Shown piece after piece: positions 5,589 to 38,699 of a stretch of 43,598 bases of DNA. The translations under genes were made by a program, and so were the position numbers. The notes below the pieces were generated by a model that was not told where the DNA came from, did not search any database, and was given only the letters and a program-made list of their open reading frames with translations. Within the stretch, counting starts at the first letter, position 1. Each line of letters begins with the position of its first letter. The stretch is from Planctomycetota bacterium (GTDB taxonomy: Bacteria > Planctomycetota > Phycisphaerae > Phycisphaerales > SM1A02), in the NCBI GenBank assembly GCA_024230295.1, contig JAAERN010000075.1, forward strand, positions 1-43,598, written 5' to 3'.

Positions 5589-5660
5589 GGCCCCGTCGTC
5601 TAGCGGCTAGGACGTGAGGTTCTCATCCTCAAAACAGGAGTTCGATTCTCCTCGGGGTCA
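5589..5660 (+). tRNA. tRNA-Glu(CUC)
   Basis: A 72-nt cloverleaf. The acceptor strands GGCCCCG (5589-5595) and CGGGGTC (5653-5659) pair with one G-T. The anticodon stem TGAGG/CCTCA encloses loop TTCTCAT with anticodon CTC (5622-5624). The T-arm is AGGAG-TTCGATT-CTCCT, and the discriminator A is at 5660. CCA is not encoded. A strong hairpin terminator follows within 6 bases, so it is probably transcribed alone or at the end of the Sel1 transcript. Confidence 0.96.
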
Positions 5661-6829: not shown

Positions 6830-6903
6830 TGGCGATAGTTGGATTCGAACCAACGACCTAGGGCTTATGAATCCCTCGCTCTAACCAACTGAGCTATATC
6901 GCC
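6830..6903 (-). tRNA. tRNA-Met(CAU), elongator type
   Basis: Read on the minus strand, the acceptor strands GGCGATA and TATCGCC pair perfectly. The D-arm is GCTCAGTTGGTTAGAGC, the anticodon loop TTCATAA carries CAT, and the T-arm is GTTGG-TTCGAAT-CCAAC. The discriminator is A and CCA is not encoded. The first base pair is G-C, unlike bacterial initiator tRNA-fMet. A CAT anticodon could also belong to a lysidine-modified tRNA-Ile, but the overall sequence looks like elongator Met. Confidence 0.9.
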
Positions 6904-20448: not shown

Positions 20449-21402
20449 TCAGAGGCGGAGGCGGGGCATGGCGGCCTCCAACTGATCCAGAGCACCGGCC
20501 AGATGTCGGGGGTGTCCTTCGGTCTTCAGGAAGGCGGGAGACGTTGCTGCCATGAGGATTCTTCGAATGTCCGCCAACTCGGGTGAGAGAGGCTCATTCT
20601 GTAGCCCATGCCTACGCCGAGCTTGGGCCAGCGCCTTCACAGGTCGAGTGGCCTTGAGTCGGTCTGGGCGGCCCCAGAGCTGACGTTCGAGGTAGACCGC
20701 GTCTTCGGTCCAGTGGCCGGGGCGGACCTCGGCAAGGTCAATCAGAATGACGTCGCCGGTCTGGGGCGACGTTCGGCTCAACGCATTGGCAAGATGGAGA
20801 TCTCCGTGGATCCAGTGCGTGGCATCCCGTCTTCGCCACCGCTGGACAAGGTTGTCATGCCGCTTCTGGACAAGCTTGACTGCCTCTGCCCACCGTGGTT
20901 TCTGCGATAGTCGATTGTCACGAATCGACTTCCGTGATTGATCGAGAAGCGTTGTCCAGTCTTCAACTCGAGCCTCGGCAGTATCAACCGGCAGTGAATC
21001 CGTTTCAGCATGAAATCGGGCAGCAGCGTCAGCGACTCGCGAAATGTGATCCTTGTGCCACCGAAGTCCCAGCGGACCGTGGGGAAGTCGCTCCATGACG
21101 AGCCATGCCAAGTCGTAGTGCCCAAGCGTAATACCGGAGGCAAATAGGTGCGGAATCACATCCGGAGGCGTGCTGTCCGGAGTTTGGAGCCGCCGTGTCC
21201 AGAACAGTTCCTTGGGAATGATGGGAAACTTAACGATGACCTCCCGTGGAGGCCCCTCACCAGTCGTCCAGATAGCGCGGCCCGTACTGGCGCCGCCACG
21301 TTGCCAGTCGGCCCGAAACCACGACACCGGGCCAAGATGCCCCTTACAGGCTTCAATGAGCGTCGGAAGCAAGTTCTTGGCGAAGGTCGGGTCGTGATGC
21401 AT
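20449..21402 (-). CDS. APH-type phosphotransferase (aminoglycoside/choline kinase family fold)
   Basis: A 317-residue soluble kinase-like protein. IVKFP (Lys58) is the ATP lysine. The catalytic loop IHGDLHLANAL (198-208) provides Asp201 and Asn206, and LIDLAEVRPGHWTEDA carries Asp222 in the place of the second metal ligand. The N-lobe is short. The family includes aminoglycoside, choline, homoserine and small-metabolite kinases; nothing here indicates antibiotic resistance, and the substrate is unknown. The start at 21402 has GGAG 5 bases upstream; a GTG at 21429 is less likely. It is divergent from the HAD gene across a 160-bp region with direct repeats. Confidence 0.82.
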   Translation of the reverse strand: MHHDPTFAKNLLPTLIEACKGHLGPVSWFRADWQRGGASTGRAIWTTGEGPPREVIVKFPIIPKELFWTRRLQTPDSTPPDVIPHLFASGITLGHYDLAWLVMERLPHGPLGLRWHKDHISRVADAAARFHAETDSLPVDTAEARVEDWTTLLDQSRKSIRDNRLSQKPRWAEAVKLVQKRHDNLVQRWRRRDATHWIHGDLHLANALSRTSPQTGDVILIDLAEVRPGHWTEDAVYLERQLWGRPDRLKATRPVKALAQARRRHGLQNEPLSPELADIRRILMAATSPAFLKTEGHPRHLAGALDQLEAAMPRLRL

Positions 21403-21457
21403 GCAAGCTCCAGGCGCCTCTCCTGCCACCGCACCATGGGTGAGATCAAAGGGGCCA

Positions 21458-21499
21458 ACCGGTCTGGGATACGTACCGGTCTGCGAACCCTACGGTCTG
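21458..21499. repeat. Three direct repeats of (A/T)ACCGGTCTG in a divergent promoter region
   Basis: ACCGGTCTG occurs exactly at 21458-21466 and 21475-21483, and as TACGGTCTG at 21491-21499. Start-to-start spacing is 17 and 16 bases. They lie in the 160-bp gap between the APH-type kinase gene (minus) and the HAD gene (plus), placed where a regulator of either gene could bind. I see no gene for such a regulator next to them. Confidence 0.55.
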
Positions 21500-21562
21500 G
21501 TTGGAGCGGATTCAACCCCTCATTTCGTGCGGGACAATGACGATCCCTGCTACCGTTCCCGG

Positions 21563-22450
21563 ATGGGTCGGCCCGACCTCCTTGTCATCGATTTGGATGG
21601 AACCTTGCTCGATCGAACCGGGTTGGTTTCACCTGAGAATATCGCCGGTATCCGCCGCGCCGAATCCGAGTCGCTTCCATTGGTCATAGCGACAGGGCGA
21701 ACCCGTAGTGAGTCAGCCCACATCTTGGAGGCAATTGCCTATGAGGGGCTGTTGATTTCGGCAAGCGGATCATTGCTTGTGGACTCTCATGATGGCCACA
21801 CTCTGGATCGAAGGACGTTGTCGCCGGAGATCGTCGAGCAGACTGTTGCGTTTGTCCTCGCGGGAGGCGCGGCTGCGATGATTCTCAAGGATCGTCACAG
21901 CGTGGGTGTGGACTATGTTGTCGTCGGAACAGGCAACCTCCATCCGGTTTCCGACTGGTGGTTCGAGGTGACTGGCGCGACCTATACGCGGGTCGATCGA
22001 ATTGAGGCCGATCCGTTTCCGGAGCACAGTGTGCGCGTTGGAGCTGTTGGAGGAACGACAGAGTTCATCCCGATGATTGCGGAACTTGAACGCATGCTCG
22101 GCTCGCTTATTCAGGCACGGCATTGGGAGGCGGTCACCAGTTCAGAGCATGCCGGAGAGCCCGTACATCTGTTGGAGGTGTTTCACCCCGAGGCCGACAA
22201 GTGGACGATGGTGGAGGCGTGTTGTGGGCGCAAGGGATGGGACAGCACACGCGCAGCGGCTGTGGGCGATGGCCTGAACGATGTGCTCCTGATCGATCGC
22301 TGCGGACTTGGAGTTGCGGTGGAGAATGCCCGCCACGAAGTGTTGGCCGTGGCCGACGCGATTACCGATGCCCATCATGAACACGGCGTAGCGTCTCTTA
22401 TCAATGACATTCTCGATGGCAATTTGCTTCTTGGCGGAGTACGACCGTGA
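21563..22450 (+). CDS. HAD-superfamily hydrolase, Cof (type IIB) family
   Basis: A 295-residue soluble phosphatase-like protein. Motif I is VIDLDGTLLDRTG with nucleophile Asp10 and Asp12; motif II is the ATGRT segment. The conserved Lys is in EADKWTMVEA, and motif IV is AVGDGLNDVLLID, which binds magnesium. The cap between about 85 and 200 is of the large alpha/beta C2 type, as in Cof, YbiV and related sugar-phosphate or cofactor phosphatases. The substrate cannot be assigned. The ATG at 21563 is the first Met before motif I; upstream in-frame codons are non-conserved and overlap the other gene's promoter. The stop overlaps the GTG of the next gene (GTGA), so the two are co-translated. Confidence 0.9.
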   Translation: MGRPDLLVIDLDGTLLDRTGLVSPENIAGIRRAESESLPLVIATGRTRSESAHILEAIAYEGLLISASGSLLVDSHDGHTLDRRTLSPEIVEQTVAFVLAGGAAAMILKDRHSVGVDYVVVGTGNLHPVSDWWFEVTGATYTRVDRIEADPFPEHSVRVGAVGGTTEFIPMIAELERMLGSLIQARHWEAVTSSEHAGEPVHLLEVFHPEADKWTMVEACCGRKGWDSTRAAAVGDGLNDVLLIDRCGLGVAVENARHEVLAVADAITDAHHEHGVASLINDILDGNLLLGGVRP

Positions 22451-25400
22451 GCAGATTGGACGCTGAAGCTTCGCATCCATGGCACCACCACGAGGGCGTT
22501 GCCGTTCTGTCGGCTGCGGAGGCTGTCCTCAAGGGAGTATTGGAGGGGGAGGCCGTCGTACACCGAATGCTGGTGACGGACGGCAGATCGACAGGGCGAT
22601 TTCAGAAGTCACTCGAGCACGGCGATGTTCGCGATTTGCTTCGCAAGCATCGGCTCGTGTGTCGGGTGGTCGGGGATGCGGGCCGCGCCATTGAATTGGC
22701 CCAGTGGAACGCAACTGAGGGGCGTCACGTGGTGGCATTGGTAGGTGGTCCGACCGTGACAGCGAGCATTCAAGCGCTTGAACGCATTGGAAACTTTGGT
22801 GGTGCCGAATCCATGGCCCTTTTCATGGAGCTTCCTGGAGGGTCAACGGGAAGCAGGGCAAGAATCGCCGCGGCTGGCTTGCCGCTCCTTGAGGCTTCGT
22901 GTGTCGAGAGCCTTCGTGGCTCTGTAGAACACGGGCTCCGAATCAGCCGGGGCGCCTCTGCGCCCTGCGTTATCGCTGTGAGCCCTGAGATCATGCAGTC
23001 TGAGGAGAGCCTGACCCTTCGCCCCAATCGCATGGCGGATCAGCCGCCGGCGGGTCTGCCGCGAACGCGCGGTCCGCGCTGGGATGAAATGGGCGGCGCG
23101 CTACGGATTGCGAGACGGCTCGAGCTCAACATTTCAAGATCCATGCCGAGTCCAGGTGAGCGAGCAGAGCTCGGTTTTGTAACAGTCGGAAGCGCTGATC
23201 GAACACTTCGGCGTCTCGAGACGTTGCTTGGAGTAGAACGCCGCCTGCCAACACTTCACCTTCGGATGACACATCCAATTGACGACGCCGCGATCGAGCG
23301 ATTGCTTCGCCGATGCAGAACAGTTGTTGTGCTGGAGCCTCCAGGTCAGCTTGTCGAATTGGCGCTCGTTCGAATCGCCCAGCGAATGGGCCGAGATGCG
23401 ATGGATCCCGCACTCGTATTGGGACACTCTCTGCTGTACGAGACGGACGCCAAGCATCTTCTTCATCCGTCACCGATGGCTCGGATTCTCTCGCCGCTCA
23501 TCCAAACGGTGGTCACCGGACCATCTCTGGAGTCTCGGCTGGCCGAGCCTTCTCCATCTTTACCGCTCCATCTCGAGCCATATCGATTCGGAGACTCGGC
23601 GCACGCAGAGGAACTTCGAGAACTCCTCGTCGGAATGATTGAAGCCGAGTCTGATACGAGCGATGAGGAGGATGCGCCCGACCAGACTGGCCAAACTGAA
23701 CATCCGGTGCGATGGATGGTTCAGGGCAAGTGGGTGGGGCCGATCGAAGGCGTCACGGTGCACGCCGAATTCTGGGGTGCGTCGCGGTTTCGGCGATCAG
23801 GGGCTGCGGCAATCAGGCAGGCAGCTGTGGACGGGGGAACGTGGCTTCTCGTCATTGCAGCTGGCCCGCCCCCGCAAGGGAGGGAACTCGAGCGGCTTGT
23901 TGGAGGAATGGTCCCTGGCGAGAGAGCTGGGCAAACGCGGATTGTCCGAAGGAGCGGTCGAGCCCCCGCTGAGATCCAACGAAGTATGCGAGAGGCGTCC
24001 ACGGCGGACGGGTTGACCGTTCTCATCGTCGAGGACGATTTGCCAACGCGATTTGATGCAAGCACGATGGAGCATGCGCTGGCAGCAGTTGATCGAATCG
24101 GCTACCAACACACGCAGCGGGTCGCATGGCCCGCGGACCGGGCATGTGTCATTCGGGAGCCGTCCGATTTGCGGCAACGCGAACTGCGAATGGTCGATGA
24201 AGCGATTGCTGAGGGCACCACCATGAGCGTGGGACCGATTTCGTTGCGATGGCCGCCGCGGATGTCGGGTCGCGTGCAGCCGCTAGCAGAACAGGTCGAA
24301 GTAGTTCGAACGAGTCCGCCTACGCGTGGTATTCGCGGCGACGATGTTCCGGGGCAGCCTGTGTTCGAACATGCCTCTCAACCTGTGTGGTCAGCACATC
24401 TGGCAGGCTTCCGAGGGGGATCACCTGGGTTGGCCGCATCGGTATTGGAGCAGGCAGCGGTTGTAGCCGGATACCACGTCGAAGTTGGATGCGATCCCCG
24501 GCCGACCGGGCCGGGCAGACGGAAGCTCTCGCAAGTCGTCTTCTGCCGACCCAGAAACGAAGCGGAACGGGCAGCGGTCCCTCCGGTGATTCCGTGGGGA
24601 GAGGCGGATCTTCTTCTGGGCTTTGACCGAGGATCCACACTTGATGCAGTCGATCCCGACGGCAACTACAGGGTTGCCTCGGCTGGGCGGACGTCGATCT
24701 TCGCCAATACTGGTCTCTTTGAAGATGAACTGGATCGCTTTGATGACCAGGATGAGGCGGCAAGCGTCATTCAGGCCCACCTTAAAAAGGTTGCTGCGGC
24801 GGAGCCCGCGCTGTGTTCAGATCTGACGGGCGTGTGTCGGTACCGATTCCACAACGAACGATTGTCTGACCTCGTATTGGTGGGTCTTGCCTGGCAAGCA
24901 GGGCGAATTCCACTCTCGCTGGACGCGATGCATCGCGGTATCCAAAGTGTCGAGTCTCGGGGTTGGGCGAGGCTCGGCGAGGCCTTCGAGTACGGCCGTT
25001 CGGCCTGGCTCGATCCGGGTCGGTTGCTGCGGACTCAAGAAAGCGCTGTTGAGCCGGGGCTACGGTCCATCCGCCGCTATCGACTGATACTTGCCAGAGG
25101 TCGCCTGTTTGGCCGCGATCGCGCAGGGCGGTTCAGGCAGGTGGCAGGCCGGGTTCTCGATGAAGTCCCTGGTCTGCTCGAGACGGCTGCGGGACGGGAA
25201 GCGCATCGCGACTTCATCGTGGCGCTTCGGCGGTGTGTGACTTGGGGTGGCTTTGAGATGGCCGAGCGTTTTGCAGGTCGGATCATTTCGCTCTATCAGG
25301 TCGATCGGGCTGACACCGGCAGGGCGTTGACGCGGGCAGCGATCCTGCCGTTGGCAGAAACTCTTCTCATTCGCGATGCTATCTACGTGGCTTCGATGGC

Positions 25401-25797
25401 AATCAGTTCGGAGCACCGCCGCCAAACCCAGCAGCGGCTCAATGTGCGCCGCGGGCGAGGGGATCGTATTTCTATTCGATATCTGACGCGACTTGAGTGC
25501 GTCTTTGTTCGCTGGCGATTCCGCCTCGACCTGAGAACCAGCGATTGGATGGCACACGTATTGGCTGCGGCGAAGTACGTGCACCCAAAGGGGCTTCGTG
25601 GCCGACGGAGCCAGAGGCAAGTCCGAGCTTTGGTTTCGGAGGTCGTCATGCAGGCGACGAGTGCGCCCGACGATGATTACGAGTCATGGCGTGCTGTTCT
25701 CGAAATGTTCCATGCCATGGCGCTGGACGGGCGTCTTCGTCGAGTCAGTCCAGCATCGCTTCGGCGGGAGATTCGTCGCCTTCGGCCCGTCGGCTGA
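22447..25797 (+). CDS. Long-form indolepyruvate ferredoxin oxidoreductase relative lacking TPP and Fe-S motifs
   Basis: A 1116-residue protein whose domain order follows the fused (long) indolepyruvate:ferredoxin oxidoreductases. Residues 14-200 resemble the pyrimidine-binding domain and 240-310 the transketolase C-terminal-like domain (GFVTVGSADRTLRRLETLLG, LRMTHPI). Residues 420-600 are the TPP/Fe-S region, 645-760 the gamma domain (GEADLLLGF, GRTSIFANTG), 796-856 its second half (LVGLAWQAGRIPLS, EAFEYGR), and a C-terminal helical domain follows. The motifs needed for catalysis are gone: the GDG..N-type TPP-magnesium site reads GASRFRRSG then AAGPPPQ, the gamma-domain glycine loop reads GFRGGSPG, and neither the CxGCPH cysteines nor ferredoxin-type cysteine clusters remain. 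It is therefore probably not an oxidoreductase; its actual role is unknown. It starts with GTG, coupled to the HAD gene. Its last 53 bases overlap rlmN tail to tail. Confidence 0.75.
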   Translation: MSRLDAEASHPWHHHEGVAVLSAAEAVLKGVLEGEAVVHRMLVTDGRSTGRFQKSLEHGDVRDLLRKHRLVCRVVGDAGRAIELAQWNATEGRHVVALVGGPTVTASIQALERIGNFGGAESMALFMELPGGSTGSRARIAAAGLPLLEASCVESLRGSVEHGLRISRGASAPCVIAVSPEIMQSEESLTLRPNRMADQPPAGLPRTRGPRWDEMGGALRIARRLELNISRSMPSPGERAELGFVTVGSADRTLRRLETLLGVERRLPTLHLRMTHPIDDAAIERLLRRCRTVVVLEPPGQLVELALVRIAQRMGRDAMDPALVLGHSLLYETDAKHLLHPSPMARILSPLIQTVVTGPSLESRLAEPSPSLPLHLEPYRFGDSAHAEELRELLVGMIEAESDTSDEEDAPDQTGQTEHPVRWMVQGKWVGPIEGVTVHAEFWGASRFRRSGAAAIRQAAVDGGTWLLVIAAGPPPQGRELERLVGGMVPGERAGQTRIVRRSGRAPAEIQRSMREASTADGLTVLIVEDDLPTRFDASTMEHALAAVDRIGYQHTQRVAWPADRACVIREPSDLRQRELRMVDEAIAEGTTMSVGPISLRWPPRMSGRVQPLAEQVEVVRTSPPTRGIRGDDVPGQPVFEHASQPVWSAHLAGFRGGSPGLAASVLEQAAVVAGYHVEVGCDPRPTGPGRRKLSQVVFCRPRNEAERAAVPPVIPWGEADLLLGFDRGSTLDAVDPDGNYRVASAGRTSIFANTGLFEDELDRFDDQDEAASVIQAHLKKVAAAEPALCSDLTGVCRYRFHNERLSDLVLVGLAWQAGRIPLSLDAMHRGIQSVESRGWARLGEAFEYGRSAWLDPGRLLRTQESAVEPGLRSIRRYRLILARGRLFGRDRAGRFRQVAGRVLDEVPGLLETAAGREAHRDFIVALRRCVTWGGFEMAERFAGRIISLYQVDRADTGRALTRAAILPLAETLLIRDAIYVASMAISSEHRRQTQQRLNVRRGRGDRISIRYLTRLECVFVRWRFRLDLRTSDWMAHVLAAAKYVHPKGLRGRRSQRQVRALVSEVVMQATSAPDDDYESWRAVLEMFHAMALDGRLRRVSPASLRREIRRLRPVG

Positions 25798-26860
25798 CCC
25801 CGGCCCGCGACTCCTGGCGTAGTTGCCCGCATGCCGCGGCAATGTCGCGGCCACGGCTTGCGCGGATATGCGTGTTGATCCGCCGGCTCCGCAGCACACC
25901 TTGAAACGCGTGCACATCCTCGTCAGTAGGTCGCTCGAACGGCAAACCCTCGACCGCGTTGTAGCGAATCAAGTTGATGTTGCATCTGAGGGTTGTTGCT
26001 ATATCAGCGAGTTGCCTTGCATGATGACTGCGATCATTGACGCCTCGGAGCAGCAGGTACTCCAAAGTAATCTCGCGCCCTGTCGCTTCGAAGAAATCGC
26101 TGCAGGCCGAGAGGATCTCGCTGATCGTTGCGTACTCTGCCCACGGAATTAGTTGCCGCCGAAGTTCATCATTCGGTGCGTGCAGACTGAGCGCGAGGGT
26201 CACCGGTACCGGGAAAGCAGCCAGTCGCCGAATCGCTGGGGGGAGCCCCACGGTGGAGACCGTGATGCGGCGAGCGCCGATTCCGAGTCCCCATGACGCG
26301 TTCATTGTCGTGATGGCTTGGGTGATGGCGGCGTAGTTGGCCAGTGGTTCGCCCATCCCCATGAAGACGACGTTCGTTACGCGGCCGCCGCTGAGTTGGC
26401 CGAGTCGCCATGCCTGCTCCACAATCCTGCCCGCCGTGAGATTGCCATCGAGCCCTTCCATTCCGGATGCGCAGAAACGACAACCAACAGGGCAGCCGAC
26501 CTGGCTTGAGACGCACGCGGTCCGCCGGGCATCTGCGGGAATCAGCACGGTTTCTGTCGAAGGCGGTCTTTCAAGAACACTCATCTTCGTTCCGCTTCGT
26601 GGCCACTCAAGAAGCAGTTTCTGGGTGCCATCGGTAGCAACCTGCCTTCGAGACTCATGCCCTTCGAGGATGGGGAGCAACTCGGCGATCAGCATCCGAT
26701 GGTCTTTTGAGAGATTGCTCATCTCAGAGGGATCACTGACGCCTTTGCCGTAGACCCAGTTGATGATCTGGTCGGCAGTGAATCCGGGCAGGCCATGATT
26801 ACTGCACCAGTGGCGCAAGCTCTCAGGGTCATGATCAAAGAATGCGATGGGAGTACTCAC
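25745..26860 (-). CDS. rlmN: Dual-specificity 23S rRNA/tRNA adenine-C2 methyltransferase RlmN
   Basis: A 371-residue radical-SAM enzyme that methylates A2503 of 23S rRNA and A37 of some tRNAs. The cluster motif is Cys123-x3-Cys127-x2-Cys130 (GCPVGCRFC). FMGMGEPLANY, TVSTVGLPPAI and LALSLHAPNDELR are family signatures. The catalytic cysteines are Cys116 (TACVSSQ) and the C-terminal Cys in RDIAAACGQL. A 20-residue Arg/Glu-rich tail follows; its end overlaps the convergent oxidoreductase-like gene by 53 bp. The start is GTG at 26860, overlapping the ispH stop as GTGA, so it is the second gene of ispH-rlmN. Confidence 0.96.
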   Translation of the reverse strand: MSTPIAFFDHDPESLRHWCSNHGLPGFTADQIINWVYGKGVSDPSEMSNLSKDHRMLIAELLPILEGHESRRQVATDGTQKLLLEWPRSGTKMSVLERPPSTETVLIPADARRTACVSSQVGCPVGCRFCASGMEGLDGNLTAGRIVEQAWRLGQLSGGRVTNVVFMGMGEPLANYAAITQAITTMNASWGLGIGARRITVSTVGLPPAIRRLAAFPVPVTLALSLHAPNDELRRQLIPWAEYATISEILSACSDFFEATGREITLEYLLLRGVNDRSHHARQLADIATTLRCNINLIRYNAVEGLPFERPTDEDVHAFQGVLRSRRINTHIRASRGRDIAAACGQLRQESRAGVSRRAEGDESPAEAMLD

Positions 26861-27915
26861 TGGCTGGCGCCAATCGTCAGGCTGATAACTTGATGGGGGA
26901 CACTGTGGCGGGCGAGAAACTCATTGGTGGACGCGATGTTGTCCATGGTGATTCGGCGGCCATCTGGATCGATTGATCTGGATCTCATAAACTTTTTGAG
27001 AGTTCCCGGAAGTCCGAATTCGACGTTTTCGTGGAAGACGTCATGTTGCTCGACACTGCCGCCGAAGTTGGTATACAAGTGCAGGATGAGATCCTGAACG
27101 AGATCCTCTGGCGCGCTGGCACCGGCTGTCACAAGGACCGTCTCGGCTCCAGCGAGAACTTCTTCCGTGAGTTCCTTGCGATCATCGACGAGCACTGCCC
27201 GAGTTCCAGTTGATTCTGCGAGTTCCCGAAGCCGCTTGGAGTTCGAGCTGTTGCGTGAGCCAACGACGATTACCAAATCGCACTCCGAGGCCAAAATTCG
27301 CACAGCATGTTGCCGGTTCGTCGTCGCGTAGCAGATGTCATCGCTCGGCGGCTCATGGATTTCTGGAAATCGATCTTTGAGTGCCTTGATGATGACCGAT
27401 GCGTCAGTCATGCTCAGAGTCGTTTGGGTGAGATAGATGAGCATTGCTGGATCGTGGATCTGGAGTTCTGAAATGGCTGCGACCGAATCAACGACCTGAA
27501 TTGCATCGGGTGCCTCGCCTCGGGTACCGATGATTTCCTGATGCTCCTTGTGCCCCACGAGCAGAATCTGCCAGCCTCGTCGCGCATAGCGAATGGCTTC
27601 CGCGTGGACCTTGGTCACGAGCGGGCAGGTGGCGTCGATGGCGATCAATCGTCTCTCGGAAGCCGCCTCCCGGACGGCTGGACTGACGCCATGGGCGCTG
27701 AACACGAGAATGGATCCTTCCGGCACAGCCTCGATGGATTCGACGAATACGACTCCACGGTCGATGAATCGGTCGACGACGTGCTTGTTGTGGACGATCT
27801 CGTGATAGACGTAGATCGGTTCGTCGTCGATGACATCGAGAAGCTGATCCACGACATCGATCGCCATATAGACGCCTGCGCAGAATCCACGTGGGTTTGC
27901 CAAGAGAATCCGCAT
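26857..27915 (-). CDS. ispH: 4-hydroxy-3-methylbut-2-enyl diphosphate reductase
   Basis: A 352-residue Fe-S enzyme, the last step of the MEP pathway, making IPP and DMAPP. The three cluster cysteines are Cys12 (RGFCAGV), Cys97 (DATCPLV) and Cys195 (DICYATTNRQ). HEIVHN, FSAHGV, GHKEHQE and the TAGASAPE motif are all present. The ATG at 27915 has AGGAGA 5 bases upstream; the open frame upstream to 28098 is not conserved and overlaps the hpnC region. It is divergent from hpnCDE, whose substrate it ultimately supplies, across about 75 bp. A tail of about 40 residues after the usual end adds length relative to E. coli IspH (316). Confidence 0.97.
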   Translation of the reverse strand: MRILLANPRGFCAGVYMAIDVVDQLLDVIDDEPIYVYHEIVHNKHVVDRFIDRGVVFVESIEAVPEGSILVFSAHGVSPAVREAASERRLIAIDATCPLVTKVHAEAIRYARRGWQILLVGHKEHQEIIGTRGEAPDAIQVVDSVAAISELQIHDPAMLIYLTQTTLSMTDASVIIKALKDRFPEIHEPPSDDICYATTNRQHAVRILASECDLVIVVGSRNSSNSKRLRELAESTGTRAVLVDDRKELTEEVLAGAETVLVTAGASAPEDLVQDLILHLYTNFGGSVEQHDVFHENVEFGLPGTLKKFMRSRSIDPDGRRITMDNIASTNEFLARHSVPHQVISLTIGASQ

Positions 27916-27990
27916 GCCGTCTCCTGTGTGTTGGAATGCAGGCCAATGCCCGCCCGCGAATCGTGCCCCATGATAGCCTGCGGCTCCAAG

Positions 27991-28929
27991 ATGGATACCA
28001 AGATCATCGACATGTTGGAAAGGTGGGGGCCGGAACGCTGTGAGTCTCTCTCTCGAGATCAGGCTGCCGGATACTGCCAAAAACTGACTCTTGGGCATTA
28101 CGAAAATTTCAGCGTACTGAGCAAGTTCGTGCCAGAGCGGATGCGGGATGGTGTGTGCGCGGTGTACGCATTCTGCCGTTGGGCGGATGATCTCTCTGAT
28201 GAGTCTTGCGACACAGCAACCGCGCTCTCGCGGCTTGAGTGGTGGCGGAGCGAATTGGAACTGTGTCTCAAGGGCTCACCTCGCCATCCGGTGTTCGTGG
28301 CGCTGGCGGATGTGTGCGAGCGGCATGCGCTTGACGGCGATCTCTTCCTCGCCTTGATCGATGCCTTTGTTCAGGATCAGCACCAGTCTCGGTACGACAC
28401 ATGGGAAGACCTCATTGGCTATTGCCGCGGGAGCGCTGATCCGGTGGGGAGGTTGGTACTTCAACTTGCCGACGTACAGCCGAGTTTGGCGACGCTCGAA
28501 GACAGTGATGCGGTCTGCACCGGACTTCAACTCGCCAACCATTGGCAGGATGTCCGCCGCGACATACTTGAACGAGATCGCATCTACATTCCACGTGATG
28601 TGGTGAACGTGGACAATTTCGAATCCAGGCTTGTCTCGACCGCAAAGGTGGGGCACGCTCCAGATCGTGAGTTCCTCGTGAACTATCGCGACCTCATGGC
28701 AGGGCTCGTCTCGCGGACGCGACCACTTCTTGGGCGAATTCATTCGCTGCTAGAAGCAGTTCCGCCCGACCTTCACCCCATGCTGTGGCTCTTTGCTGCA
28801 GGCGGCAGCACGACCTTGAATCTTATCGAGCGGTCGGACCATGAAACCATTTTGTATCGCCCGTCGATTTCGAAGCCGAGAAAGCTGCTTCTTCTGTGGC
28901 AGGCGTCGCGTCAGGGGCGGGTCGCGTGA
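27991..28929 (+). CDS. hpnC: Squalene biosynthesis protein HpnC (hydroxysqualene synthase pair)
   Basis: A 312-residue trans-isoprenyl diphosphate synthase-fold protein. In the HpnCDE route HpnD makes presqualene diphosphate from two farnesyl-PP and HpnC turns it into hydroxysqualene. HYENFSV, AVYAFCRWADDLSDE (first Asp-rich motif) and LANHWQDVRRDI (second Asp-rich motif) are the expected signatures. The start is uncertain: ATG codons at 27970, 27991 and 28012 are all in frame without a good ribosome-binding site, and 27991 is a middle choice. The stop overlaps the GTG of hpnD (GTGA). Confidence 0.92.
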   Translation: MDTKIIDMLERWGPERCESLSRDQAAGYCQKLTLGHYENFSVLSKFVPERMRDGVCAVYAFCRWADDLSDESCDTATALSRLEWWRSELELCLKGSPRHPVFVALADVCERHALDGDLFLALIDAFVQDQHQSRYDTWEDLIGYCRGSADPVGRLVLQLADVQPSLATLEDSDAVCTGLQLANHWQDVRRDILERDRIYIPRDVVNVDNFESRLVSTAKVGHAPDREFLVNYRDLMAGLVSRTRPLLGRIHSLLEAVPPDLHPMLWLFAAGGSTTLNLIERSDHETILYRPSISKPRKLLLLWQASRQGRVA

Positions 28930-29801
28930 GCGGCGGAACCCTGGTGGCAGCGCCGCATCGTTCACTTGAGTGGTGTCGGGCGATTGTGCGCAAGCGAGCA
29001 GGCAACTTCTACTGGGGGCTGCGGCTTCTTCCTGATCCCAAACGCTCGGCACTCTTCGCGCTCTACGCCTGGATGCGGCGGGCCGACGACATCGCGGACG
29101 ACGCCGTCGACATACGCAGCGCGCAGGATCAACTTGCAGTGTTCGGAGCTCGAACTCGGGAGATTCTTTCTGGTGAGGACCCGGGGGATGAGGAACTCTG
29201 GCAGGCGATGGCCTGGGTGGCTCGGAACTGGTCGTTGCCAGCGGAGCCATTCGAGGAAATGCTGCGCGGACAAGCTGATGATCTGAGTGACCGGACGATC
29301 GAGACAACGGAGGATCTTCTGGACTACTGCCGGTGTGTTGCTTCGACAGTCGGTGTGTTGTGCGTCACGATTTGGGGCTACCACGGAGACGAAGCGTTGG
29401 ACTTAGCCATTGAACGCGGCGTGGCTTTGCAACTCACGAATGTACTTCGCGATGTTGGAGAAGACGTTGCTTCGGGGCGGTGCTATTTGCCAGCAGAGGA
29501 TCTCCGCGTCCACGGATTGAGCGCCTCGTCGCTTGTCTCGTGGCAGCGCGAAGACGTATGTGAATCATTCATTCGGCGGTGGATCGATACAGCTCGTGCC
29601 TGCTACGACGTATCGTTGCCCCTCGATGACATGGTGTCCAAGGATTGTCGGCCGACACTTCGGGCGATGACGGGCATTTATCGGGCGCTTCTCGATCGCA
29701 TCGATGCCGCGCCACGCCGAGTCACCAGTGTGCCCGGCGTCTCGATATCGAAGCTCGCCAAAATCATGATTGCGATTCGCTCTCGCAGAGGTTCATCGTG
29801 A
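28926..29801 (+). CDS. hpnD: Presqualene diphosphate synthase HpnD
   Basis: A 291-residue squalene/phytoene synthase-family protein. The first Asp-rich motif is RRADDIADD and the second LTNVLRDVGEDVASGRCYLP, which is the phytoene-synthase-like version seen in HpnD. LYAWMRRADD replaces the AFCRWADD of HpnC, which helps to tell the two apart. The gene starts with GTG at 28926 in a GTGA overlap with hpnC and ends in a GTGA overlap with hpnE. Its order between hpnC and hpnE strengthens the assignment over a carotenoid phytoene synthase. Confidence 0.92.
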   Translation: MSGGTLVAAPHRSLEWCRAIVRKRAGNFYWGLRLLPDPKRSALFALYAWMRRADDIADDAVDIRSAQDQLAVFGARTREILSGEDPGDEELWQAMAWVARNWSLPAEPFEEMLRGQADDLSDRTIETTEDLLDYCRCVASTVGVLCVTIWGYHGDEALDLAIERGVALQLTNVLRDVGEDVASGRCYLPAEDLRVHGLSASSLVSWQREDVCESFIRRWIDTARACYDVSLPLDDMVSKDCRPTLRAMTGIYRALLDRIDAAPRRVTSVPGVSISKLAKIMIAIRSRRGSS

Positions 29802-31198
29802 GCGGAGACGTGGTCGTGATCGGTGGGGGCCTCTCCGGACTTGCCGCTGCGCTGCGGCTTGGCGATGCTGGCTACCGGCCAATCGTTCTTGAATCGCGGC
29901 GACGGCTCGGTGGACGCGCCTCCAGTTTCGACGACAGTGTGAGCGGTCGTGTGTTCGATAACTGCCAGCACGTTCTCATGGGGTGCTGCACCAACCTGCT
30001 TGATTTCTACACCAGAATCGGCGTCGAGAATGCAATCGAGTGGCATGACACAATCGCATGGTGCCGCCCAGACGGGGGGCGCGACGTGATGCGTTCGCGT
30101 GCGCTTCCTGCCCCGCTACATCTCGCCGGGAGTTTCCGCCGAATGAAGCTGCTGGACCGCCCTGCCCGCCGCGCAGTCCGCCGCGCGATGTGGCGCATGC
30201 TTCGCATCGGGACTCGGGGACGACACCGATTCGGAGGCAAGACATTCCAGTCGCTGCTGGATGAGTGGCGGCAACCCGTACAGGCAGTGCGGTTGTTCTG
30301 GGAACCCATCGTGGTGAGCGCGTGCAATGTGCCCCTTGACGAAGTGGCCGCTGTTCACGCCCTGCAGGTCTTTCAGGATGGATTCCTTGCTGGGAAGTGG
30401 CACGCCACGATGGGCGTTCCACGGGTTCCACTTGCGGACCTGTACGCGCCTGCTTCGGCTGCGATTGCGGACGCTGGTGGAGAAATTCGCCTGGGCTGGA
30501 AGGCGACCGGCATCGGCGTATCAAGCAGGAGCGTGATTGGTGTGGAAACCAGTCGTGACTTTGTGCGGGCTGACCGCGTCGTCGCAGCGCTGCCCTGGGA
30601 GCAGTTGGATGGGATCCTTGATGCCAACATTCGTGAATTTGACCAGCGGGTGGGCGAACTTGCAGTTCTCGGGCACAGCCCGATTCTCGGCGTACATGTT
30701 CTGCTGGACCGCGAGGTGATGGGAGAGCCGCATCTGGTGATGCCCGGACGGAAGACTCACTGGTTCTTCAACAAGGGAGTGGCCGACGACGGGACGCAGC
30801 ACATCCATGCCGTGGTAAGCGCTGCCGATGCGTGGATGGATCGATCGAGCGATGAGATTGAGGCTGCAGTACTGGAGGATCTGGCGCATGCGTACCCGCG
30901 TGTTGCAGATGCCAAGGTATTGCAGGTTCGCCCGATCAAGGAACGCAGAGCGACCTTTCGCGCGGCGCCTCAGGCGGAGGTCGCCCGGCCGCACGCGAGC
31001 CCGAGCCCGGTTGGCGCAAGCGGCGGAGATTTGAATGGACTGTATTTAGCGGGCGATTGGTGCGCGACTGGTTGGCCTGCCACGATGGAGGGCGCGGTAC
31101 GCAGTGGATACCTCGCGGCGGAAGCGATCACCGGTGTTGAGGGCGTGGTTGCCGATGCGCCCGCAGGAGTTCTGGTGCGAGCGCTGGCGGCGGGGTGA
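29798..31198 (+). CDS. hpnE: Hydroxysqualene dehydroxylase HpnE (FAD-dependent)
   Basis: A 466-residue flavoprotein that reduces hydroxysqualene to squalene, completing the HpnCDE pathway. The N-terminal dinucleotide-binding motif is VVVIGGGLSGLAAALRLG, followed by the acidic strand end LESRRRLGGRASSF. The C-terminal FAD motif is LYLAGDWCATGWPATMEGAVRSG. FDNCQHVLMGC and the FWEPIVVSACN segment are typical of this branch of the amine-oxidase/phytoene-desaturase family. The start is GTG at 29798, coupled to hpnD. No squalene-hopene cyclase or oxidosqualene cyclase lies in the window, so whether hopanoids or sterols are made cannot be said. Confidence 0.92.
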   Translation: MSGDVVVIGGGLSGLAAALRLGDAGYRPIVLESRRRLGGRASSFDDSVSGRVFDNCQHVLMGCCTNLLDFYTRIGVENAIEWHDTIAWCRPDGGRDVMRSRALPAPLHLAGSFRRMKLLDRPARRAVRRAMWRMLRIGTRGRHRFGGKTFQSLLDEWRQPVQAVRLFWEPIVVSACNVPLDEVAAVHALQVFQDGFLAGKWHATMGVPRVPLADLYAPASAAIADAGGEIRLGWKATGIGVSSRSVIGVETSRDFVRADRVVAALPWEQLDGILDANIREFDQRVGELAVLGHSPILGVHVLLDREVMGEPHLVMPGRKTHWFFNKGVADDGTQHIHAVVSAADAWMDRSSDEIEAAVLEDLAHAYPRVADAKVLQVRPIKERRATFRAAPQAEVARPHASPSPVGASGGDLNGLYLAGDWCATGWPATMEGAVRSGYLAAEAITGVEGVVADAPAGVLVRALAAG

Positions 31199-35444: not shown

Positions 35445-37118
35445 CTAGTAGTCCCTCATTGGAATCTGGACATCCTGATCATCGGCGCACTCGCGGGCGG
35501 TCTTGTAGCCGGCATCTGCGTGCCGGATGACGCCCATCAGTGGATCGTTTCGTAGCACCCGCGACAGTCGCCGATCCGCCGCATCGGTGCCGTCACACAC
35601 GATGACTTGCCCGGCATGTTGGCTGTATCCGATGCCGACGCCACCACCATGGTGGAAGGACACCCATGAAGCACCGCTCGCGGTATTGACGGCGAAGTTG
35701 AGCAGTGGCCAATCACTCACGGCATCGGTGCCATCCAGCATGCCTTCGGTCTCGCGATTCGGCGAGGCGACCGAGCCGCAGTCGAGATGATCGCGTCCGA
35801 TCACGATCGGCGCCGAGACTTCGCCTGTGCGGACCATTTCGTTGAAGCGAAGGCCGGCGCGATCGCGCTGGCCCAAACCGAGCCAACAGATTCGGCAGGG
35901 CAGCCCCTGAAAGGCGACCCGCTCGCCCGCCATCTCGATCCAGCGACGGAGTCCTTCGTCTTCAGGGAAGAGTTCCAGCATGGCCTTATCGGTGGCGGCG
36001 ATATCCGCCGGATCACCCGAGAGCGCGCACCAGCGGAACGGGCCGCGGCCGAGACAGAACTGCGGCCTGATATACGCGGGCACGAATCCCGGGAAGTCGA
36101 AGGCATGTTCGAAGCCCTCGTCCAGGGCTCGCTGCCGAATATTGTTTCCATAATCGAATGTGCGGGCGCCGCGGGCTTGGAGATCCACCATTAACTCGAC
36201 ATGGTGGCGCATGGTGGCCATGGACTGCCGCAGATAATCATCCGGATCGGACGCTCGAAGGGCATCGGCTTGCCCGCGGGTGAGCCCTTCCGGGTAGTAG
36301 CCGTTGAGCGGGTCGTGAGCGGAAGTCTGGTCGGTCAATGCATCGGGCGTGACATCTCGTTCGATGAGTCTGGCGAGCAGATCGACGGCGTTCCCGAGCC
36401 AGCCGATGGAAACGGATTCTCCTGCAGCCTTGGCCGCAAGTGAGCGATCAATGGCGGCGTCCAAATCTTCGATGATCTCGTCGAGGTACCGATCGTGAAC
36501 GCGTTTATCCAGTCGCTCCCGGCACATTTCCGCGATGAGGCATACGCCATCATTCATGGTGACCGAGAGGGGCTGCGCGCCGCCCATGCCGCCGCATCCG
36601 GCCGTCACCGCGAGTCGTCCTCGCAGCGTGCCGCCAAAGTGTTGTCTCGCGCACTCGGCAAAGGTTTCGTAGGTGCCTTGCAGAATGCCCTGCGTGCCGA
36701 TGTAGATCCACGATCCGGCGGTCATCTGCCCGTACATGATCAGGCCGTGGGCAGCGAGCTCATCAAAGTGCTCCTGCGTTGCCCAGTGCGGAACGAGGTT
36801 CGAGTTGGCGATAATGACACGAGGGCTATCTTCGGTCGTTTGGATGATGCCGACGGGCTTGCCAGATTGCACAAGCAGCGTCTCGTCCGGAGCCATTGAC
36901 TGGAGCGATGCGATGATCGCGTCGTAGGCCTCCCATGATCGGGCAGCCTGACCACGGCCGCCGTAGACCACGAGTTGCTCTGGGATTTCGGCAACCTCCG
37001 GATCGAGGTTGTTCATGAGCATTCGCATGGCAGCCTCAGCCCCCCAACTCCTGCACGTCATATCGCTCCCGCGCGGAGCTCGAATTGTTCGCTGCGATGT
37101 ACTTGAGATCCGGGTCAC
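35445..37118 (-). CDS. hutU: Urocanate hydratase
   Basis: A 557-residue NAD-dependent enzyme, the second step of histidine degradation, turning urocanate into imidazolone-propionate; the length equals the known family size. The NAD-binding region is [56 protein letters not shown] and the Cys-containing [10 protein letters not shown] are conserved segments. GTG at 37118 is chosen because GGAG lies 6 bases upstream and the protein then begins like other urocanases. A GTG at 37157 would add 13 unrelated residues. It follows hutH after about 57 bp. Confidence 0.97.
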
Positions 37119-37175
37119 AGGAGACTCCGAGTGGGGCCCTTGGGGACTTTGAAGCACGAGTAGACGACGATGCTA

Positions 37176-38699
37176 TCAGGAGGCCAAGTTCAGAGAACCA
37201 TCGTGAATCAGGCCGTCGATCACCGCAATGTCCGGGGATGGAGACCGATCCTCGGTAAGTGGGGGAACCTCACGGCGGATCTCTGCATACAGGGCCTCGA
37301 CGCGGTCACCACTGCGGAGTGGCCGCTGATGCTCGAGCCCTTCCGCTGCGACGAGGAACTCGATCGCGACGGTCTGGCGAGTGAGCTCGACGGCGTGCCG
37401 CAGATAGGCCGCGGACGTCGCGCCCATCGAGTTGTAGTCCTCAATGCCCGCCGATGTCGGAACATTCCCGACGCTGGCCGGCGTGGCGATGCACTGCAAC
37501 TCATTACAAAGGGCGGCGGCGGTGTACTGCGTGATCATCAAACCGCTGTGCAGTCCGGGCGAAGGACTGAGGTGATGCGGCAGTGAATTCTCCTGATCGT
37601 GTGCACTCAGAAGCCAATAGACACGGCGTTCGGAGATGCCCGCGATATGGCACAAAGCGATCTTGGCCGTATCCGCTGCAATCGCCAGAGGCATACCGTG
37701 GAAGTTGCCGCCGCTGAGAATGTCCTGCTGGTCGGAAAAGATGAGCGGGTTGTCGGTGACGCCGCCGAGTTCTCGCTCGGTGATCAGTTGCACATAATGC
37801 AGGGCGTCGCGGGCGGCGCCGAGCACTTGGGGGATGCACCGAAACGAGTATGGATCCTGCACGCGAGGATCGTCTTCGGCATGATCGAGCAGGATCTGGC
37901 TGCCCTCAAGTGCGTCCAGAACTTCGGCAGCAATCACGGCTTGGCCGACTTGATTGCGAGCCGCATGAAGACGGGCATCGAGTGGCCCGCTGCTTGCTCT
38001 GGCGGCATCGATGCTCATCGCCGCGGCGCCGGCCGCTGCATTCAGGAGGACGTCCGCATCGTGGCAGGCCAAGGTGAGCGTGGCAGCCATCAGGTGCGTG
38101 CCGTTGATGAGCGCGAGGCCTTCCTTGGCGGCGAGCGTCAGCGGCGTGATCGCGGTCATGGCAAGGGCCTCGCTTCCCGGCATCGGACCACGTTCACCGA
38201 CAATGGCCTCGCCCTCACCGATGAGCAGAAGGGCCGCGTGTGAGAGCGGCGCGAGATCGCCCGAGGCGCCGACGGATCCCCGACAGGGGACGACCGGCAC
38301 AACGTCGTGGTTGAGCAGGGCGGCGAGCATGTCGAGGACCTCACATCGCACGCCGCTGTGACCCCGACAGAGGCTTGCCAGCAGGAGCAGCATCATGGCC
38401 CGCACGACTTCGGCGTCGAGTGGTTCGCCCACGCCAGCGGCATGTGAGCGGAGTAGGTTTCGCTGAATCTCGGCGACCTGGTCGGGTTCGACACGATGCC
38501 TTGAGAGCGAGCCGAACCCAGTATTGATGCCATAGACGGGATCAACGCCACCGGCCGCCGAATCAACGACGCTGCGAGCGTTGCTTGCCGCTTCGCGGGC
38601 CGTGCCATCGATTTTGACGCGCCACCCATACCGCGCCACACCGACTACATCGTGAATTGTCAATGCCGCTGAATCCAAGATGACGGTTGGGGCCTTCAT
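37176..38699 (-). CDS. hutH: Histidine ammonia-lyase
   Basis: A 507-residue enzyme that deaminates histidine to urocanate, the first step of the pathway. The self-made MIO electrophile comes from Ala145-Ser146-Gly147 in GSVGASGDLAPLSH. The catalytic Tyr is in VYGINTGFG (Tyr56). GLALINGTH, DNPLIF and GNFHGMPL are further signatures. It is first in the hut operon. Its ATG is 48 bp from that of the divergent membrane-protein gene, so the promoter must lie in that short gap or in the neighbouring coding sequence. Confidence 0.97.
   Translation of the reverse strand: MKAPTVILDSAALTIHDVVGVARYGWRVKIDGTAREAASNARSVVDSAAGGVDPVYGINTGFGSLSRHRVEPDQVAEIQRNLLRSHAAGVGEPLDAEVVRAMMLLLLASLCRGHSGVRCEVLDMLAALLNHDVVPVVPCRGSVGASGDLAPLSHAALLLIGEGEAIVGERGPMPGSEALAMTAITPLTLAAKEGLALINGTHLMAATLTLACHDADVLLNAAAGAAAMSIDAARASSGPLDARLHAARNQVGQAVIAAEVLDALEGSQILLDHAEDDPRVQDPYSFRCIPQVLGAARDALHYVQLITERELGGVTDNPLIFSDQQDILSGGNFHGMPLAIAADTAKIALCHIAGISERRVYWLLSAHDQENSLPHHLSPSPGLHSGLMITQYTAAALCNELQCIATPASVGNVPTSAGIEDYNSMGATSAAYLRHAVELTRQTVAIEFLVAAEGLEHQRPLRSGDRVEALYAEIRREVPPLTEDRSPSPDIAVIDGLIHDGSLNLAS

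Follow-up and report, generated by a model that had tools for sequence, protein, structure and literature searches.

A cofactor-stripped relative of long-form indolepyruvate ferredoxin oxidoreductase, probably a maintained pseudoenzyme, in the Phycisphaerales family SM1A02

The gene at positions 22447 to 25797 of a 43,598-nucleotide stretch of planctomycete DNA (contig JAAERN010000075.1 of assembly GCA_024230295.1; Phycisphaerales, family SM1A02), referred to here as the window, encodes a protein derived from long-form indolepyruvate ferredoxin oxidoreductase (IOR), an enzyme dependent on thiamine diphosphate (TPP) and iron-sulfur clusters. The TPP/magnesium site, the catalytic glutamate and the cluster ligands have been lost, isolated residues aside, in all the family sequences examined. 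The protein is thus homologous to an enzyme family whose catalytic residues it lacks while being maintained by selection, and a preliminary description made from the DNA letters had read it as a repurposed pseudoenzyme. That reading is supported by cofactor sites gone throughout 89 family sequences, by a nearly universal gene and by purifying selection. In our judgement it is probably a core pseudoenzyme of one Phycisphaerales family, usually present in single copy and acting as a scaffold or regulator through domain II, the gamma domain and the C-terminal domain. The evidence is strong for ancestry, loss and maintenance, and weak for a particular new role.

Pseudoenzymes are well known as a kind, being proteins of enzyme families which are kept without the catalytic motifs and which take scaffold and allosteric roles (PMC10211241). 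The terms "thiamin" and "ferredoxin" do not occur in the text of that review, and a pseudo-oxidoreductase which it describes is an ALDH2 variant. Literature titles and abstract openings, a coverage which excludes most subscription papers, held no description of this protein or of a 2-oxoacid:ferredoxin oxidoreductase (OFOR) with lost cofactors, and "indolepyruvate" and "ferredoxin" are absent from the main text of an article on the uncultured family SM1A02 (PMC11266412). As an example of a large redox enzyme with several cofactors turned into a conserved, probably non-redox protein, this one is well sampled. Intact, intermediate and fully stripped forms coexist in one bacterial order, which makes the order of loss and the gain of constraint testable. 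It is also a warning for annotation, as naming by homology would yield an indolepyruvate ferredoxin oxidoreductase and would wrongly add 2-oxoacid fermentation or ferredoxin metabolism to mostly uncultured bacteria.

Ancestry, lost cofactor sites and predicted fold

The gene, its domains and its former cofactor sites are as follows.

22447..25797, + strand: IOR-derived pseudoenzyme gene, 1116 residues; GTG start overlapping the stop codon of the HAD phosphatase gene (GTGA)
22489..23046, + strand: domain I, the former pyrimidine-binding (PYR) domain, about residues 15-200, from AlphaFold and VIA
22678..22680, + strand: position of the former TPP-activating glutamate in the PYR domain, now Ala78
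23089..23544, + strand: domain II, about residues 215-366, the most conserved region in the family
23707..24126, + strand: former TPP diphosphate-binding (PP) domain, about residues 421-560, its motif gone
23776..23802, + strand: GASRFRRSG from residue 444, replacing GDGTFxHSG
23857..23877, + strand: AAGPPPQ from residue 471, replacing an Asn-containing stretch (canonical ILDN..TAMTGHQ)
24145..24147, + strand: Cys567, first of seven former ferredoxin-domain cysteine positions and the only one still Cys
24367..24816, + strand: gamma domain, about residues 641-790, matched by the POR profile in 6 of 33 aligned sequences
24394..24429, + strand: AHLAGFRGGSPG, altered gamma glycine loop (canonical GVGGMGIG) including Arg656
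24817..25794, + strand: C-terminal, mainly helical domain (DUF6537-like), about residues 791-1116

The frame runs uninterrupted from GTG to stop over 3.3 kb, as had been described. The NCBIfam profile PRK13030 (indolepyruvate ferredoxin oxidoreductase subfamily) matches the window protein with E=5.5e-14 and all 33 sequences of the family alignment that includes it (best 2e-24), which places the ancestry far beyond chance. The score of 50.8 bits is far below the curated cut-off of 816 bits, while the homology itself is significant. At E up to 0.01 Pfam gave no domain for the window protein, DUF6537 being sub-threshold (E 0.018); at the same limit DUF6537 matches 9 of the 33 aligned sequences, and the window protein is not among the six matched by POR. 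A PDB sequence search returned no match for the single protein and only weak matches for a profile (best E 0.014). With long-form IOR (PRK13030/PRK13029; Pfam POR plus DUF6537) the protein shares its length class and domain order, and the conserved blocks quoted in the preliminary description are in place, GEADLLLGF at residue 718, GRTSIFANTG at 747 and LAWQAGRIPLS at 814. Unlike long-form IOR, it has neither the PRK13030-type TPP/magnesium motif (GDG..N) with its catalytic glutamate, nor CPGCPH, nor the ferredoxin cysteines (one position excepted), nor the GVGGMGIG loop of the gamma domain.

Cofactor sites were compared across 89 dereplicated family sequences (from 117 near-full-length ones), 23 cofactor-complete relatives, 6 intermediates and 10 other stripped relatives from the families f4 and f6, together with 4 IORs encoded on plasmids, of which three carry that annotation. 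The cofactor-complete rows were picked by CPGCPH, GDxGC, GDG-type and cysteine-cluster patterns, so that their motif counts hold partly by construction; the catalytic glutamate was no criterion. This residue, whose loss the preliminary description had not mentioned, is kept in all the cofactor-complete (23/23), intermediate (6/6) and plasmid (4/4) sequences and in none of the family (0/89) or other stripped ones (0/10). The magnesium-binding Asp of GDG, Ala445 in the window protein, follows a similar distribution (23/23, 4/6 and 4/4, against 1/89 in the family, namely L028, and 0/10), and so does the Asn of the TPP motif, here Gly473 (23/23, 5/6 and 4/4, against 1/89, namely L087, and 0/10). 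Both replacement motifs are present as first described. The CPGCPH cysteines are kept in no family sequence, the HGDTGC cysteine in one of the 89, and ferredoxin positions 2 to 7 are Cys in none. The claim that the CxGCPH and ferredoxin cysteines are absent stands for CPGCPH and for these six positions and fails for the first, since Cys567 is still Cys in 77 of the 89. The reported change in the gamma loop was also borne out, where 88/89 family sequences have Arg (Arg656) for the third Gly and no sequence of any other group does (cofactor-complete 0/23, intermediate 0/6, other stripped 0/10). Homologues retaining the cofactor motifs, which would have pointed to sequencing error, were not seen among the 89, none of which has the catalytic glutamate or the CPGCPH cysteines. 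A regular expression for a GDG-like motif had one match among the 117 near-full-length family proteins, at residue 853 of the trimmed L106 row. This lies away from the motif position and was set aside as chance. With these sites gone, the window protein would no longer carry out oxoacid oxidoreductase chemistry.

AlphaFold, run on the 33-row alignment, gave a model with pLDDT 85.8 and pTM 0.84. In the PDB, Foldseek ranked pyruvate:ferredoxin oxidoreductases (PFORs) first (2c3y, E 5.3e-11). The global TM was low, at about 0.3, for which a different domain order is the probable reason. In VIA-align, 9bt4_A was matched over residues 16-372 (Z 25.1, 315 residues aligned, rmsd 4.0) and PFOR 7plm over residues 15-858 (Z 23.6, 505 residues aligned, rmsd 4.7). 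The expectation that structure prediction would return the oxidoreductase fold was thus confirmed, the predicted OFOR fold and domain order covering residues 15-858, and the C-terminal domain is assigned by sequence. When modelled alone (residues 786-1116, pLDDT 88.3), that domain matched nothing in the PDB at E below 0.001 and the VIA list was led by designed helical repeats, a result which is uninformative and no proof of a new fold.

Maintenance, distribution and shift of constraint

A profile search found the gene in 109 of the 111 family genomes which are at least 90% complete and in all 37 genera, the two genomes without it being G293 and G464. Among the 109 carriers, 103 have an open frame of at least 1000 residues; in the other six (G259, G460, G461, G029, G454 and G281) the gene is mostly in pieces or at contig ends. 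It is nearly always single-copy, with two divergent copies in G028 (7% contamination) and two alike in G136, other double rows being pieces. Moreover, it is kept in all 11 small genomes (1.8-2.1 Mb) of genus g19, ten of these matching the profile only from about position 68-75.

Selection was estimated from the ratio of nonsynonymous to synonymous substitution rates (dN/dS) by simple Nei-Gojobori counts, for which many pairs are near saturation and pairs are not independent. For the 125 family pairs whose dS was below 2 (of 186 pairs at 55-97% identity) the median was 0.174; for 157 of the 253 pairs of cofactor-complete relatives it was 0.272. The two lowest-dS family pairs, both above 91% identity, gave 0.119 and 0.091. 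A median well below 1, together with the near-universal presence, agrees with the initial view of a gene maintained rather than decaying. Outright decay or an assembly error has a negligible probability. The gene evolves faster than the housekeeping genes near it (identity to L053 is 57%, whereas RluD has 81% and HAD 59%), and the f4 copy L051 is split in two frames; the 103 long open frames and the dN/dS values nonetheless rule out a frameshift or assembly artefact.

Regional conservation was calculated as mean pairwise identity over up to 600 random pairs per group. In cofactor-complete relatives it was 0.74 for PYR, 0.62 for domain II, 0.73 for PP, 0.76 for the ferredoxin region, 0.66 for gamma and 0.67 for the C-terminal domain. 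In the window's family the ranking is the inverse, with 0.33 for PYR, 0.44 for domain II, 0.34 for PP, 0.33 for the former ferredoxin region, 0.43 for gamma and 0.40 for the C-terminal domain. The inversion was seen neither in f4 (PYR 0.63, domain II 0.62, PP 0.69, gamma 0.65, C-terminal 0.63) nor in stripped f6 rows (0.40, 0.47, 0.51, 0.40 and 0.57, respectively). In the window's family, constraint has therefore left the catalytic domains and now weighs most on domain II, gamma and the C-terminal domain, the pattern expected of a fold retained for surfaces away from the old active site. At the level of residues, 80 positions are conserved at 93% or more among the 89 family sequences. Cofactor-complete relatives share 44 of these at >80% and do not share 36, where the consensus residue differs in 29 and is Arg, Glu or Asp in 21. 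Mapping conservation across homologues, which had been proposed as a check, thus revealed both a displaced constraint and new near-invariant residues, Arg656 among them.

On a broader scale, 51 of 61 near genomes match, including 36/37 of the same family, and across the order a match at E up to 0.001, in some cases weak, was found in 174/301 genomes. A sample of 149 genomes from the phylum yielded a single full-length match beyond the order, in one genome of the same class (G362, L174). Most of 80 loci from a named collection are labelled Phycisphaerae or other planctomycetes, eight "uncultured bacterium" and two as other phyla (L121, L127). In L076, L103, L107, L121 and L127, labelled Candidatus Kuenenia, Singulisphaera, Limnohabitans or Chitinophaga, the gene has RlmN and IspH as neighbours, and these are probably mislabelled metagenome-assembled genomes.

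Intact, intermediate and stripped relatives in the order

The closest intact relatives, from the same order and class, are cofactor-complete IOR-like proteins (f5, most of f6, and one each of f2 and f7; e.g. L044, L046, L134). Unlike the window's family they carry all the cofactor motifs, and in f6 they often stand beside a ketoacyl synthase gene. Six intermediates retain the catalytic glutamate and the ten Cys positions examined, and have altered TPP motifs (INTERMEDIATES): GDGAFFHGG in L145, GDATFYHSG in L146, GDAAYFHTG in L049, GDVAFFHGG in L147 (with CPGCAH), GAATFYHSG in L148 and GQGTFGHSG in L152, the last two with CAGCPQ. In f4 (L042 and others) and in L050 and L149-L151 of f6 the whole cofactor set is gone, save a Cys at ferredoxin position 2 in 1/10. 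These proteins resemble the window's family in their losses and mostly have intact long frames, and differ from it in genomic context and in lacking Arg at position 656 (0/10). The f4 copy in G051 (L051:3284-7298) consists of two overlapping frames of 1060 and 326 residues, through sequencing error or real decay. Lysine content is about 0.9-1.0% in cofactor-lost proteins and 4.9% in intact ones; as a sign of new function this is weak, as window neighbours are also low (RlmN and HAD, 1.1%).

When the motif columns were left out of the tree, the window's family clustered with f4 and the stripped f6 rows (SH-aLRT 95; 98 without the long row L047). Adjoining this group are L147 and then L146/L049. 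L145 falls among the cofactor-complete rows and L148/L152 branch separately, so that partial loss seems to have occurred more than once.

Members of one ketoacyl synthase family adjoin the IOR-like gene in 12 of 17 f6 and f2 loci (15 of these cofactor-complete; L145 and L146 intermediate), in 6/8 intermediate or stripped f6 loci (L148 by a short match), in 1/6 f5 and in 0/6 f4 loci, all counts being subject to varying flank lengths. The synthase (e.g. L046:1563-2777, - strand) is FabF-like, with motifs VAACAS, HPHATGT and KGALGH, and perhaps serves a lipid pathway whose primer is aryl or branched. In the window's family it was found in 0/7 genomes at E up to 1e-20, against 9/20 genomes overall in that search. 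All four fully stripped f6 genes (L050, L149-L151) adjoin it, which suggests that loss took place in the old location and not in a spare copy. Directly after each of these four lies a same-strand long gene of one family. Its L050 copy (L050:7177-10722), the only one on which domains were called, encodes a 1182-residue fusion of E1 alpha, E1 beta, lipoyl and KASIII (FabH) domains. Full-length relatives occur in G091 (83%) and G105 (70%), and G041, to which the intermediate L049 belongs, has one at 52% in another place. Such a fusion could hand an acyl group straight from lipoyl to ketoacyl synthase, and an E1-type enzyme may have taken over acyl supply to the synthase. In f4, the stripped gene is followed by a Rho-family gene (L042:7258-8466; PRK09376 1.9e-117), with a relative in 6/6 f4 loci.

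A broader scenario, which we advance as speculative, is that the body was stripped of all cofactors stepwise, the steps being visible in living relatives, and was then fixed family-wide with a new function, either as a new charged-residue active site or as a structural hub; in the sister lineage the loss would coincide with the E1-lipoyl-KASIII fusion, which perhaps took over the supply of acyl primer. A takeover of this type would explain how the old catalysis became dispensable.

Possible roles and gene neighbourhood

The genes which adjoin the pseudoenzyme gene in the window are listed here.

20449..21429, - strand: APH-type kinase, divergent neighbour (PF01636, 1.4e-11)
21401..22450, + strand: HAD-IIB (Cof-type) phosphatase, upstream, with DLDGT and GDGLND motifs (Pfam Hydrolase_3, 8.1e-38, residues 61-334); its true start may lie near 21560, judging from the start of the domain
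25745..26860, - strand: RlmN, convergent, overlapping the 3' end of the pseudoenzyme gene (TIGR00048, 1.1e-103)

The full order is RluD, g19516, APH kinase, HAD phosphatase, pseudoenzyme gene, RlmN, IspH. Upstream DNA was sufficient in 81 loci. Of these, 75 have a HAD gene no more than 600 nt away (63 on the same strand, 12 on the opposite one), three have it further off, and in three none was found. Across 48 well-flanked loci, HAD is in place in 47 (the exception being L112), g19516 in 47, RluD in 46, RlmN and IspH in 43 each and APH in 25. None of the window's other genes, HAD included, was matched in 14 loci from other families of the order.

The cofactor sites were lost from a TPP- and iron-sulfur-dependent long-form IOR ancestor, and on the scaffold or regulator reading charged residues would fill or brace the old cofactor pockets. 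The resulting protein would be a structural or regulatory platform which binds a partner via domain II, gamma and the C-terminal domain. Plausibly, other enzymes took over the catalysis, and what the large body retained was its role in binding. The most testable partner would be the adjacent HAD phosphatase, whose stop codon overlaps the pseudoenzyme start.

Several points weigh against this interpretation. Motif absence is no proof of absent catalysis, and migrated catalytic residues are described in pseudoenzymes (PMC10211241); a CxxC pair occurs somewhere in 15 of 117 family proteins. The scaffold role and the HAD partnership draw only on conservation and position, and the HAD gene is on the opposite strand in 12 of the 75 adjacent cases. 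Furthermore, dN/dS is uneven, reaching 0.23-0.40 in six of the eight lowest-dS family pairs (L022/L023, 0.286). Finally, an approximately unbiased (AU) test does not reject a separate branching-off of the window's family and f4 (p 0.48), so that one loss and two are indistinguishable.

A more specific proposal, overlapping with the preferred one and possible although clearly less probable, is that the protein serves specifically to regulate or stabilise the adjacent HAD phosphatase and is produced by translational coupling. The GTGA overlap and the frequent adjacency are consistent with it, and in L122 the APH and HAD genes remain when RluD, g19516, RlmN and IspH are not found in place. Conversely, L112 keeps APH and g19516 with HAD over 1 kb off, and RluD and g19516 are conserved almost equally with HAD. 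The earlier statement that the gene is coupled to a HAD phosphatase therefore holds as adjacency; functional coupling does not follow from it, the adjacency being part of a wider synteny.

The main rival to the scaffold or regulator reading is a new enzyme on the old fold, in which conserved charged residues would now occupy the former cofactor pocket or the gamma loop and form a new active or ligand-binding site. Candidates would be Arg80 (two after the lost glutamate), Glu441 (three before the old GDG), Asp549, His651, Arg656 and Arg691, and the abundance of Arg, Glu and Asp among the 36 family-specific positions fits such a refilling, as does the near-invariance of Arg656. However, the PYR, PP and former ferredoxin regions, the likely home of much of a refilled site, are the least conserved, and isolated conserved charges can be structural salt bridges. 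We regard this rival as rather unlikely.

Far less probable is a non-catalytic subunit of a living oxidoreductase complex whose partners carry the cofactors, e.g. with the second OFOR of the genome. A separate OFOR gene pair does exist on contig C69, with POR_N (2.5e-50) and TPP_enzyme_C (1.8e-31) side by side, and the dimer-forming domain fold is predicted to be kept. The pseudoenzyme gene, however, lies on C75, and the contigs cannot be ordered; the ferredoxin ligands are gone, and the domains which would need to pair are the least conserved. A hidden intact second IOR was rejected, as a PRK13030 search of the same genome (97.6% complete) matched the window gene only.

Elsewhere in the window, three squalene-type genes (an SQS_PSY protein, HpnD-like and HpnE) lie in a row beyond IspH at 27541-31198 and occur near the pseudoenzyme gene in many loci. 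At 35445-38699 a urocanase gene adjoins an aromatic amino acid lyase gene, probably for histidine breakdown, and two tRNA genes (Rfam RF00005) are found at 5589-5660 (+ strand) and 6830-6903 (- strand).

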